Below, piece after piece: positions 25,158-31,067 of a stretch of 64,000 nt of DNA (positions are counted from its first letter, which is position 1; each line of letters starts with the position of its first letter). Both the position numbers and the translations under genes were made by a program. Origin of the DNA: Heterostelium album PN500 (Eukaryota; Evosea; Eumycetozoa; Acytosteliales; Acytosteliaceae); the NCBI RefSeq assembly GCF_000004825.1, contig NW_008805075.1, positions 435,788 to 499,787 of the forward strand. Reading direction: 5' to 3'. The notes below the pieces were generated by a model, which did no database searches, was not told the DNA's origin, and saw only the letters and a list, made by a program, of their open reading frames with translations.

Positions 25158-26808
25158 ATGTTTAGATTATTATTTAATCATCAACAACATAGAACTACTA
25201 TTTTAAATACAAATAGATTATTATTTAATAATAATAATAATAGTAGATTCTATTCTTCATATGTTGTTGCTGCAGCTGCTACTGGTGATAATGTAATTAA
25301 AACATTAAGATCAAGAGGATTCATCTATCAGATGACAAATAACGATGAGGAGATGGTGAAGATTACAAACACATCAATATCGTTGTATGCTGGATTCGAT
25401 CCCACTGCAGATAGTCTTCATATTGGTAATCTATTAACTCTGATGGTACTGCTACACTTTAAGCGTCACGGACACAAACCAGTTGCATTGCTTGGTGGTG
25501 CCACTGCACTCATCGGTGATCCAAGTGGTAAATCAACTGATAGACCACAATTAGATAGATCCTATGTTGAAAACAATTCATCATATATCAAGTAAGTAAT
25601 TGTAATTGCACTAGTGGCATTTCGATTGAAAAACAAAAAGTGTAGACTAGTCTGATGATATATACTAACAACTGCTTGCTAATTAATTAACTGTGCAATT
25701 ATAATTGCATTGCAGTGAAAACATTGTTGATATTCTTGGTAAGGATACAACTATCGTTAATAATATCGATTGGAATAAGAGTATCTCTATTATCGATTTC
25801 TTTAGAGATGTAGGAAGATATTTTAGAGTTGGAAATATGCTAAGAAAGGATTTCGTACATAATAGACTTGGAACACTCTCAGAGAATGGTAAACAATTGT
25901 CGTTGAACGACGACGACTCTGCATCGGGTATCAGTTTGCCAGAGTTTTGTTATTCATTGTTCCAGGCCAATGACTTTGTACATCTCAATCAGACACACCA
26001 ATGTGTAATACAAGTTGGAGGTTCAGATCAATGGGGAAATATCACTGATGGTTGCGAACTAATCAAAAAGAAACTGAGTAAACCTGCATACGGTATTACC
26101 ATTCCACTATTAACCAATTCACAAGGTAAAAAACTTGGTAAAAGTGAAGGAAATTCCATATGGTTATCATCAAAAAAGTAATTGTTATCTATCTATCTAA
26201 ACAAATCAATTGAATTGATTACTCAAAATACTAATTAATATTAATATTTGATTTTCAACAGAACAAGCGCATACAATTTCTATCAATATTGGATTCAAGT
26301 TTCCGATCAAGATGTAGAGAAACTTTTGAAACTATTTACTTTGTTGCCACTCGAGGAAATTCAGAGTATCGTTGATGCTCACAACAAAGAACCACATCTA
26401 CGATTGGGACAAAAGAAAATAGCAGAGTGTGTCACTCAACTGGTACACGGAGATAGAGGTTTGGAGGATGCGATTAAAACTACAAATTTATTGTTTGGCG
26501 ATAACAAATTGAATTTACAAGATCATTCCGAATCAAAGGAGATCGGTAGATTGCTCTCTGGTGTCAATATTTCAACTAGTTTGTCCAAGTCAGAGTATCT
26601 GTCGACTCCAATCAGCAGCATCTTTTCCAAGGTTTCCGGTTTGTCAAAGAACCAATCGAAATTGCTAATCAACAACCAATCACTCTACCTCAATGGTGAA
26701 CAAGTTAAATCGCCAGCACAACTGCTGGAGCCCGAATGTTTGATTGACAATAGCTTTGTCATTCTAAGATCTGGTAAAAAGGCATTCCATTTGATCAAAT
26801 TCGATTAA
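25158..26808 (+). CDS. Tyrosyl-tRNA synthetase, mitochondrial type
   Basis: Three exons (25158-25591, 25716-26177, 26262-26808) encode about 480 aa. It is a class I synthetase charging tRNA-Tyr. The HIGH-type motif is HIGN at about 88-91 in [14 protein letters not shown], followed by [17 protein letters not shown]. The tyrosine-binding region [14 protein letters not shown] and the KMSKS-type motif KLGKS (about 284-288, in [15 protein letters not shown]) are as in bacterial and mitochondrial TyrRS. The C-terminus has an S4-like segment ([22 protein letters not shown]). The first ~40 residues are basic/Asn-rich with aromatic residues and no acids, fitting a mitochondrial presequence. The stop lies only 44 bp from the stop of the convergent kinase-acetyltransferase gene. 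Confidence 0.95.
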
Positions 26809-26852
26809 CATTTTTAAAAATAAATAGAGTAGTAGTTCCGTTTCATTGTTTA

Positions 26853-29181
26853 TTAAAAGTTTTTTAATTTCGGTTTTCTCTCGAGCACCCAAACAGAATT
26901 GATTCCTTTAGGCAATTCTTCACCGTTGATCTCCACTGAAACTTCAAAGCCAAGTTTTTGGAAAAATGGAATCGATCTCTGTTTAAAGATCAGTGCCTTA
27001 CAAATACGACTGGAGAAATCACACCATTCTAAAACTGGAGCTAATAAATATTGGCCAATGCCCTTTGATCTTGATTCTTTTGATACTGCACAATAGGCTA
27101 AATGATAGTAGTTGTCATTGGAATTATTGTTTGTCTTTTCCATTATCTTATCGATCTTGGCCATTAAATCCTTGATTCTCTTTGAATTTACTAAACCCAG
27201 TTTTGGCAACAACTTAATCATCTTCATTATTATCTAAAAAACAAATAAAAAAATTGTTAAATAAATTTCTCTATTTTTAAAATAAAATAAATATTACACT
27301 TGTAAAAGGTACTCGTTTTCTACAATCTGGAGTCATCCAACATGCAACACCATTTAATACATTATCTGAATTATGATATCCCTATTTTTGTTTTAAATAT
27401 TAATAAAATTATTTATCAATTTAATAATTAAATATATACGAAAACAACTTACCCATAGTAAAAATCTTTCTTCAAACATAATCTTAAGACCATTGTAAAA
27501 GAACATCTTTCTTAAACTGTGGGATTTGGGTTTATCTTTTTTTCCAATCCAAGAGAATCTTGGGTCGTTATCATAGGCTTCAGCCAACAAAGCAGACGAT
27601 GCTACTAAATCAGCTTTTTCCAATTGCTTTCTAAATCCACCATGAGGTGAAATTGAAAAAGTTGATACATTTGATACGCTGGTTGCAGAAACTTCAACTT
27701 TTTCAAAACTCTTTGGAATCTTGAAAACATCAAATATTTTATGTTGTAAAATTAAATCAATTGAAGGTCTGTATTCTGCATTTTCATCTAACATTTTCAA
27801 AACTAAATCTGCTAAATCGTGATAATCCTAATTTTAAAATAATTAATTTTTAAGATTCTATTTACAAAACAATATAATACTTACAGTAGGAAATTCCTTT
27901 TTGAAACTTGCAGCATCAAAAGTTCCTGAAATGAGTTCCTCGGCAATACATCTCTTAGTTAGAGGTAACAAATGTAAGGTAGTCATTTCATAAATGATAC
28001 ATCCTAAAGAAAAGATATCTGCAGGTCTACAGTATCTATGAAATAAAATTTATTAATAATTTTAATCCTTTTTTTAAACTTGAAAAAAATAATAACAATA
28101 TTTACGGTTGATTATTTAATATTTCTGGTGAGGAATAATAATAGGTACCGGCAACACCTTTTACACTAGATTCAAATTTAGTAGCCAAACCAAAATCACC
28201 AATTTTAATTTGACATTGTGATAAGAATATATTTTCAGCTATAAATATATTGCAAAAATATTAGTTTCTTTTTTAAACAAATTATTAATTTAATAAATAA
28301 TTACATTTTAAATCTCTGTGTATGAAATGAGAATTATGAATTTGATGAACTCCAAGACAAAGTTGATAAATCCAATTATATAAAACTTTTGGAGGAATTA
28401 ATATTCTAGTTTTCTTGTTACCATAATTGATTGTAGGACTAAGAGGTGGTAGAAATGGTTGTTCTGTATTGGAAATTGAAAAATCTTTTTGATCCTTAGA
28501 TTTTCTTCTATACCAGCTAGATGATTTCTTTTTCTGAGTATCTGTCTTTTCATCTAGTTTTCTATCTTGATATAAAAGTAGTTGATATGCCTTTTGTTGT
28601 TCGTAGATTCCAGAGTGTGTTAATGTACTCTGTTGTGGTGACAAGTTTATTTTTGGCATATCTTTGAACGATGTTGGAAAAGATTCTGGGGTTGAACAAT
28701 AGCTGTAACTAGATATATTGGAGGTGGTGCTGGTGGTTGTACAGCTACTAGTACTACTGGTGGTGCTAGATGATGGTGATGTCGATGATATAGTATACTC
28801 CTCTTCCTCCGATTCCTCTATCTCTTCTAACTCCAAGGTATCTTCTATCTCGTTGCCATGAGAAGCGGAACCTCCAGCCAATATTAAATTGATCATAAAT
28901 TCAAATAGATCGCCACCATCACAGTACTCCATAACTATACATAGACTGAATCCATTATTTCCATTGTTGACGATGAACACTTCTTCGAATTTTACAATGT
29001 TTGAATTTTGGAGTTTCGCCAATAGCATTGCTTCATTTAATCCGTCGTTGGCCTCTTCAATGTCAGTGAAATTCCTCTGTTTGATAACAAACATTTGTTC
29101 GTTCTCTATTTTTCTGACAAGTATAGCTTTGCCTTCTGAAGAACCCACACCAATTACTTTGATTACAGAATATTTATTCAT
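26853..29181 (-). CDS. Protein kinase fused to a GNAT N-acetyltransferase
   Basis: Six exons (29181-28305, 28238-28106, 28035-27885, 27827-27453, 27381-27298, 27233-26853) join in one continuous frame to about 666 aa. N-terminus: a Ser/Thr kinase with Nek-like opening MNKYSVIKVIGVGSSEG, catalytic Lys34 (VIK), HRDLK at about 288-292, DFG at 307-309 and SSPEIL. An acidic/Ser/Thr-rich insert of roughly 130 residues sits between the hinge (MEYCDGGDLFEFM) and the catalytic loop. After the last kinase helix (NAEYRPSIDLILQH) and a ~35-residue linker, a GNAT fold starts near residue 455 (DLVASSALLAEAYDNDPRF), with the acetyl-CoA loop RSKGIG at about 595-600 and IPFFQKLGFEV. Both enzymes look intact. 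An in-frame open stretch continues upstream to 29319 without ATG but with an acceptor-like TGTAG, so an extra 5' exon is possible. Confidence 0.85.
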
Positions 29182-29892
29182 TTTCAAAATTTCTAAAACT
29201 ATTGAATCATAAATGTTGTTTATTGTTGATATTTTTGTTGTTATTGACGGTTGTTGATTATCTAAACTGAGATCAGTTAATTCAGATTTGGTGATATTCA
29301 CTACATCAAATAAAAACAAATGATATTAATATCATCCATTCAAAAACATAAATCAAATAAAAATCATATTATTAATAAACATGTAGTCTATGTGGACATC
29401 TTACTCTTTAATATTTTATAATAATAATTTGAGGAGGTGGTAATATTAATTATTTTTTTCTGAATTTATGACTATCTATATATATATTCTTTGTAATTAA
29501 ATGATTGATTAAATGATGATGATATTAATTAAAAAAAAACATATAATATATGATTTCTTTTCTAATTTTGTTTAATTTCTTTTATGTGATACCCAAAAGA
29601 AAAAAATAATAATTAATAACACATAGATGTGCAAATTAATTAAAAAAAAAATTAATATGATCAGGTGTGATGTTGTTTATTTTATACTTTGAAAAAAAGA
29701 TAAACCACAACCACTTTATAAACATGTTTGATCGATCACACACAAAATTAACACAGCAAAGACACACTCTCTATTTCATCAACTCCATATAAAACAACCT
29801 ATAAAAACACATTGACCAATCAGAAGCAAAAATCAAACAAATTTATAAAATCAGATTAAATTTCTTATTTTTTTTTCTTGCCATTTTATTAT
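29182..29892. other. Intergenic region
   Basis: AT-rich; no gene beyond the possible 5' exon of the kinase-GNAT gene in 29182-29319. The T run near 29870 lies at the 3' side of the TRM5 gene. Confidence 0.5.
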
Positions 29893-31067
29893 TTAGTGTT
29901 TAATTTTCTTTCCTTCACCACCACTTGACACCGCTTCATTGTAATCTATTTTGTTATTGTTATTGTTATTGCTGCTATTATTGTTATTTTCTTGATCATC
30001 ATTATTCTCGGTGTCTTTTCGTTTTTTTAGAGTTGGCATTTTAAATGAAATTCTCATCATTCTTTTATTTGGTGATACGTCTCGAACTTCATACACAGTG
30101 GTATCTGCAGGCAATGGATGTTTGATGATAGCTTCAACATTTTTAATGGTCAACTCTTTGAGGTCGCCACCAGCTGTCTCTGACACCGGTGTAAAAGTAT
30201 AGCAATGTATGGTTGGCGCTGGAATGGGTGGTGCTTTCTCTGGATTCAAGAATATCTCTCTAAAGACATCCAAGAACTCGATCGATGTCGACGGCAGATT
30301 CATGATGGCCTGTGTGAATGCAACGGGTGGATCTCTACTGACCAATTCGCGAACGAAATCTCTTGCGTCCAAATTACTGATTTCGATTGTCGATGCTTTG
30401 TTTCTCGTTGCATTCTCTCGCATGTACTTGACAGAGTTTGGATTCAAGTCATTGGCATAGACCTTGCATTTCACCAGCTTCGAAGCGGGAACTGCAAAAG
30501 GTCCGACACCTGCAAACATATCGACCACTATATCATGACTCTTAAATGTTTGGATAAGATTCGAATGTTCAAATTGTAATCTACTATTCCAATAAACCTC
30601 TGCAAAATTAAATTTAAATATACATTCATTTTCTTTCTACGTGTTTTGTTTTAAAAAGTGTTAATAATACAATTATAACATTATATATATTATATACATA
30701 CTACTTGTGCTAATAAATCATTATCACCAGCCAATAATTCGAAATTAAATGTTCTGAATACAGTATCTATCTTGCCAACTTTGTTTAGAACCGTTCTGAT
30801 TTGAGGACCTTTCTTATCGAGAATGACTTGACCAATCATGTTCTTGTATGGCAATAGCTCTTCCTTCAGATTGAGATGTGCAATGTGACCGATCTTTTCG
30901 AATGCATGTGGTATTGGTAGTCCAGTTGGTATCAACTCTTTCATTACCTCCTCATAGCTAAAGTTATTGTAATTCAATTGCACTTGATGTTTAACAACCT
31001 CTATACTATGAGTTTTCAAGAATGATTGTAAATTATCTGGTAATTGTTTATCTATATTATTATTATT

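Follow-up and report, generated by a model that had tools for sequence, protein, structure and literature searches.

The window analysed here, the whole 64 kb stretch C14:435788-499787, belongs to a genome of 32.9 Mb in 39 contigs with a G+C content of 32.2%. On the minus strand of the window, from position 29181 to position 26853, lies a gene of six exons that encodes a protein kinase joined to a GNAT acetyltransferase domain, and this kinase-GNAT protein was named KG1. Rebuilt from the DNA, the six exons give a single reading frame of 666 amino acids with no stop inside, as an earlier note on this DNA had claimed. All five introns are of the GT...AG type and 57-71 nt long, and their G+C content is 9-12%, compared with 29-34% in the six exons. 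Asparagine-rich runs and very A+T-rich short introns were also seen in the window, features that fit a dictyostelid.

Exon 1 (28305..29181) encodes, with subdomains named by reading, the N-lobe of the kinase with the Gly-rich loop and Lys34, the hinge, helix alpha-D, an insert, alpha-E and the HRDLK motif (HRD at residue 288). Exon 2 (28106..28238) continues with SENIFL at the end of the catalytic loop, DFG at residue 307, the activation segment and SPE at residue 329, and exon 3 (27885..28035) with alpha-F (ADIFSLG) and further parts of the kinase C-lobe. The fusion junction is held by exon 4 (27453..27827), which encodes the end of the kinase (YRPS), the linker (27615..27728, approximately residues 421-458, limits set by hand) and the first part of the GNAT. 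The middle of the GNAT is encoded by exon 5 (27298..27381), and its C-terminal part by exon 6 (26853..27233), with strand 4, the acetyl-CoA loop RSKGIG (residues 595-600), Phe631 at the position of Tyr171 of puromycin acetyltransferase (PAC), and the stop codon. The positions of the four kinase motifs and of the loop were as the earlier note had given them.

The reading frame of KG1 is open upstream as far as 29325, and a candidate coding 5' extension (29182..29300, minus strand) could be reached through a putative intron at 29404-29301 (GTAAGA...TGTAG). With a donor at 29404 (AAAGA followed by GTAAGA) and, before 29300, an acceptor (TTTGATGTAG followed by TGAATATC), joining 29405 to 29300 creates an in-frame start codon split into A and TG, which would add 40 residues and yield a 706-amino-acid protein. 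We suggest, tentatively, that the true start may lie at this upstream codon. The added stretch has a G+C content of 24.4%, compared with 16.3% in 29407-29700 and 21.8% in 29500-29880, and the putative 5' intron one of 21%, above that of the five other introns. Base composition leaves the choice between the two starts undecided, as does the short N-terminus of the paralogue described below. Upstream of the gene, on the minus strand at 29893-30636, lies what we take to be a relative of Trm5-type tRNA methyltransferases. A plus-strand frame, presumably a tyrosyl-tRNA-synthetase-like gene, ends at 26808 and converges with the KG1 gene, with 44 bases between the two stop codons (26808-26853); the 3' ends of the two genes probably overlap.

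In the Pfam search, the kinase half of KG1 matched Pkinase with 156.5 bits (E 1.2e-45). The VAIK lysine, the HRD aspartate, the DFG aspartate and the APE glutamate are present in KG1 and also in its paralogue KG2, so that both copies combine the catalytic motifs with a Pkinase score above the cut-off, the features by which eukaryotic protein kinases are recognised. An insert of about 160 amino acids, rich in Ser, Thr and Glu, follows alpha-D in KG1. The Gly-rich loop is slightly atypical, with one residue more than in NEK1 in KG1 and without the first Gly in KG2. When each sequence was searched alone against the PDB, NEK1 came first for KG1 (1.7e-40, among the best 60 of 1001 matches) and for KG2 (1.6e-36, among the best 60 of 89 matches). 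With a profile of both kinases without the insert, the match to NEK1 reached 7.2e-56 and spanned almost the entire domain; no other PDB sequence came in at or below the 1e-42 limit of that search. The claim that the kinase is Nek-like was thereby borne out; a NEK-like assignment is supported by the closest kinases of known structure, and we do not file the protein as a member of the NEK family. An eIF2-alpha-kinase type, suggested by the insert and by the presence of PERK, GCN2 and PKR among the KG2 matches, was rejected since NEK1 lay far ahead.

Both halves of KG1 find their partner at one place in the same genome. The best non-self match of the kinase was C13:63052-63525 (54% identity, 3.6e-47), and the GNAT part matched C13:63841-64353 (37%, 2.9e-31) and C13:63632-63838 (30%, 3.4e-6), so that the kinase match and the GNAT match (63632-64353) follow each other on the same strand. 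The next kinase match by E-value was a kinase on C3 with 31% identity; a two-piece match on C33 had 40% identity and E-values weaker than those of the C3 kinase. The gene on C13 and its protein were named KG2. Its exons (L015 1777-1935, 2010-3064, 3129-3336 and 3402-3863) encode 627 amino acids and are separated by GT...AG introns with 15-24% G+C. Pfam finds Pkinase in KG2 at 5.6e-41 and Acetyltransf_1 at 18.8 bits, under the cut-off of 20.7, so routine annotation may miss this second fusion.

Between the two proteins, 131 of 255 aligned residues are identical in the kinase without the insert (51.4%) and 75 of 205 in the GNAT (36.6%). The insert occupies the same place in both kinases, with 26 of 127 residues identical, and the linker retains 7 of 27 aligned residues. 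The domains are thus conserved and the stretches between them are not. A single intron position is common to both genes, the phase 0 intron between W and GY that precedes exon 5 within the GNAT of KG1, and the remaining introns differ, as do the frames that flank the two loci; the frame downstream of KG2 is presumably that of a proteasomal-ATPase-like protein. Synonymous sites are saturated (pS 0.67-0.85), and for this reason no dN/dS value is given. Both domains have been retained since the duplication of a fused gene.

The earlier note had placed the fusion within one exon and not at a join of neighbouring genes, and the DNA sustains this. In KG1 the kinase ends at about residue 420 and the GNAT starts at about residue 459, both within exon 4, which is open across the junction; none of 20,000 base shuffles stayed open. 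Met is absent between residues 399 and 495. A separate GNAT that began at an ATG would hence include part of the kinase or lack its own beginning, and the corresponding stretch of KG2 (between 373 and 466) is equally free of Met, leaving no ATG from which an intact separate GNAT could start there either. That two adjoining genes have been read as one could still be argued from KG2, whose linker holds an intron and whose join thus depends on splicing. Against this, the KG1 junction sits within a single exon, and two loci concur on the pairing. A paralogue with the same architecture makes chance untenable as an explanation of the fusion, and the shared domain order, insert place and GNAT intron position indicate that the fusion preceded the duplication and is no artefact. 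We thus give an annotation artefact next to no credence and rejected the join of neighbouring genes; at the level of the genome sequence, the fusion is confirmed as real, with a single polypeptide as its predicted product.

A survey of kinase-GNAT pairs was made by comparing by eye at least 152 and at least 145 kinase matches with at least 50 GNAT matches, all from searches that match single exons. Among the matches listed, a kinase and a GNAT lie within 6 kb on one strand at four places, namely KG1, KG2 on C13, and one place each on C38 and C11. The C38 pair consists of a frame of 879 amino acids with GNAT-like repeats located 3.6 kb before a piece of kinase, and in the C11 pair 5.5 kb, including another frame, separate the kinase from the GNAT; both pairs look like separate genes. 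The C38 frame (L037 1131-3770) seemingly contains three GNAT-like repeats, two of which are matched by Pfam Acetyltransf_1.

For the GNAT half of KG1, Pfam yielded Acetyltransf_1 with 27.4 bits (E 4.4e-6, cut-off 20.7) at residues 579-636, Acetyltransf_7 with 27.2 bits, just over its cut-off of 27, and Acetyltransf_10 with 18.1 bits, under its cut-off of 23.6; a search of NCBIfam gave no match near any cut-off. The earlier note's prediction that a domain search of the 666-amino-acid product would find Pkinase, and a GNAT after residue 450, therefore held. The acetyl-CoA loop pattern R/Q-x-x-G-x-G/A is present as RSKGIG in KG1 and as RNGGIG in KG2. The loop and a curated score are the marks of the GNAT superfamily; KG1 shows both, and KG2 has the loop with a score below the cut-off. 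The motifs LGFEV, VLEW and LAY are likewise conserved between the two GNATs.

Searches against the PDB placed PAC (7k09) first, at 1.4e-4 for the KG1 GNAT alone, at 1.3e-6 for a profile of both copies (2qec followed at 1.6e-4), and at 3.1e-8 for the KG2 GNAT alone, over residues 8-217 of 219 (2qec, 4.3e-6). In the available part of the PAC paper, 2qec is named as the closest structural homologue of PAC (PMC7933286), so the two top matches form one group. A first structure model, built from the two sequences, was weak (pLDDT 49), and a second, built from the last exon of KG2 and three other GNAT pieces of the same genome, remained a weak model (pLDDT 61, pTM 0.62). With the second model, Foldseek placed PAC first (3.4e-7, TM 0.57, 141 columns), and at E values up to 0.001 for this weak model 16 of 17 matches were N-acetyltransferases by title, the other (3ld2) being a putative acetyltransferase. 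The model has two helices (26-39 and 41-61) before strand 4, with low local confidence. Taken together, the sequence and fold matches point to a GNAT of the PAC/2qec type.

Two pattern scans of genome contigs, which matched 18 and 34 stretches, confirmed no prokaryotic GNAT relatives, and since the patterns were narrow this has little bearing on the origin of the domain. When the two-copy profile was run over a small set of loci from the same genome, weaker relatives appeared on C29 (5.3e-7) and C3 (2.9e-5). The GNAT on C29 (L036 700-1740) has Phe at the PAC Tyr position, follows further coding-looking sequence and may likewise be part of a multidomain protein or a divergent GNAT. In the standalone GNAT on C3, the Tyr is kept and a Glu stands at the spacing found in PAC. 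This domain was considered as evidence that the fused domains have lost these residues and was set aside, its best PDB match being 3fb3 (0.0055), with PAC fifth (0.049).

The passages of the PAC paper that were available describe Tyr171 as very likely the general acid and Glu161 as involved in puromycin binding (PMC7933286). In our sequence alignments, in which the numbering of the PAC chain is apparently offset by 2 from that of the paper, Tyr171 aligns with Phe631 of KG1 and Leu590 of KG2, and Glu161 with Leu and Met, respectively, so that neither copy has the pair that marks PAC. Thus, of the intact GNAT that the earlier note had described, the acetyl-CoA loop stands and the PAC Tyr and Glu do not, and acetyl transfer is not assured. 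A motif scan of 13 other GNAT loci of the genome, from which one chance match in the linker of KG1 had been dropped, was readable in 6 and gave nothing in 7. The Tyr position is occupied by Tyr in three of the readable loci (L016, L028, L031), by Phe in two (L032, L036) and by His in one (L029). L032, which we take to be a GCN5 look-alike, has Phe at this position and a Glu in strand 4; Tyr is therefore not universal, and Phe is no proof of inactivity. The strand-4 place of the L032 Glu is taken by His584 in KG1 and by Phe in KG2. A Tyr eight residues ahead of the acetyl-CoA loop is common to both copies and might act in catalysis.

From the gene, its domains and motifs and its paralogue, we infer kinase activity, acetyl-CoA binding, acetyl transfer, cross-talk and substrates as follows. 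KG1 and KG2 would be bifunctional signalling enzymes, present as two paralogous copies, in which a NEK-like kinase and a PAC/2qec-type GNAT act within one polypeptide. The kinase, whose catalytic motifs are retained, would phosphorylate partner proteins; the tethered GNAT would bind acetyl-CoA and acetylate an amine, which could belong to that partner, to the kinase itself or to a small molecule close by; and control of the GNAT by the kinase in cis would be the switch. Of the readings considered we favour this one, at about even odds. Everything observed so far is shared with another reading, which differs in its chemistry: the GNAT would have kept its loop and lost transfer, and acetyl-CoA would allosterically tune the kinase so that its output follows metabolic state. 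The replacement of the Tyr171 and Glu161 equivalents in both copies, next to a preserved loop, agrees with such sensing, as does the kinase being the better conserved half (51.4% versus 36.6%). Yet there is no direct sign of allostery, other GNATs of the genome do without the Tyr, His584 or the Tyr shared by both copies before the loop might act, and in the available text the authors of PAC propose that water probably compensates for a missing acid (PMC7933286). We regard the sensing kinase as the main rival and as a tentative possibility. Its evolutionary form, in which a NEK-like kinase captured a PAC-type GNAT that lost its acid and its substrate Glu, kept the loop to report acetyl-CoA and was then duplicated and retained as a small family of acetyl-CoA-gated kinases, is rather more doubtful.

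Two further explanations concern what the GNAT half might do. It could be a detoxifying enzyme, a PAC-like acetyltransferase of xenobiotics or small amines, with the attached kinase controlling its activity or its location. PAC and 2qec are indeed the closest solved relatives, and a soil amoeba would encounter antibiotics, but the residue at the substrate-contacting Glu161 of PAC is not kept. To our knowledge, there is no precedent for a resistance GNAT fused to a kinase, and we consider this explanation unlikely. Alternatively, the GNAT could be a degenerate domain that serves docking or folding with no use of the cofactor, as its identity below that of the kinase and the sub-threshold Pfam score in KG2 might suggest. 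Decay of the loop would then be expected, whereas both copies still share it together with the motifs LGFEV, VLEW and LAY, and a degenerate domain seems very improbable. The replaced acid within a conserved GNAT makes the bifunctional and sensing ideas separable by assays of binding and of transfer. The link between phosphorylation and acetyl-CoA-dependent acetylation usually runs through separate proteins; a duplicated and retained NEK-GNAT fusion would be a single-gene handle on the cross-talk between the two or on direct acetyl-CoA sensing by a kinase.

Many multidomain kinases, including ones with attached catalytic or regulatory domains such as GEF, GAP or phosphatase, are described for Dictyostelium discoideum in the available text of Goldberg et al. 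(PMC1420674), which makes the architecture alone only moderately surprising. No words beginning with "acetyl" or "GNAT" occur in the main text of that paper. Neither "acetyl" nor "acetyltransferase" gave a word match in PMC4931340 on five dictyostelid genomes, PMC4758236 on Physarum, PMC4053784 on Acanthamoeba, PMC2031824 on NEK phylogeny or PMC8534566 on the Dictyostelium centrosome, and in the accessible parts of PMC11412873 and PMC7159879 kinase and acetyltransferase domains appear only as separate items. Among the open-licence PMC papers listed for this pairing, covered through titles, abstract starts and some passages, no fusion of a protein kinase with a GNAT was found, in agreement with the earlier note, which knew of no established family with this pairing. 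Judged from the literature alone, the domains are known and their pairing may be unusual or new; automatic annotation may already cover this architecture.

NEKs typically carry C-terminal regulatory tails of the coiled-coil or PEST type. KG1 resembles NEK1 (PDB 4apc/4b9d) in the profile match over the whole kinase and in the N-terminal location of this domain; it differs in the insert after alpha-D, in the extra residue of the Gly-rich loop, and in having a linker and a GNAT in place of the regulatory tails. PAC (PDB 7k09/7k0a) and 2qec, the top matches by sequence and by Foldseek, have the acetyl-CoA loop in common with both copies, and the helix pair before strand 4 of the low-confidence model may correspond to the helical hairpin that PAC has between strands 3 and 4. 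In contrast to PAC, the GNATs of KG1 and KG2 are fused to a kinase and their loop starts with Arg, where the available PAC text gives Gln (PMC7933286). Among proteins for which both activities have been claimed on one polypeptide, the consulted part of a review on bifunctional kinases reports TAF1 and CIITA as kinases and acetyltransferases, CIITA autophosphorylation raising CIITA acetyltransferase activity, and also names two D. discoideum bifunctional kinases, none of them a NEK-GNAT protein (PMC9138534). The likeness to TAF1 and CIITA ends there, as their architectures differ and that text describes neither of them as a GNAT joined to a NEK-type kinase. The N-acetylglutamate synthase-kinase of Xanthomonas (PMC1865377) also unites a kinase and an N-acetyltransferase in one polypeptide, but the kinase there belongs to the small-molecule amino-acid kinases of arginine synthesis and is not a protein kinase.
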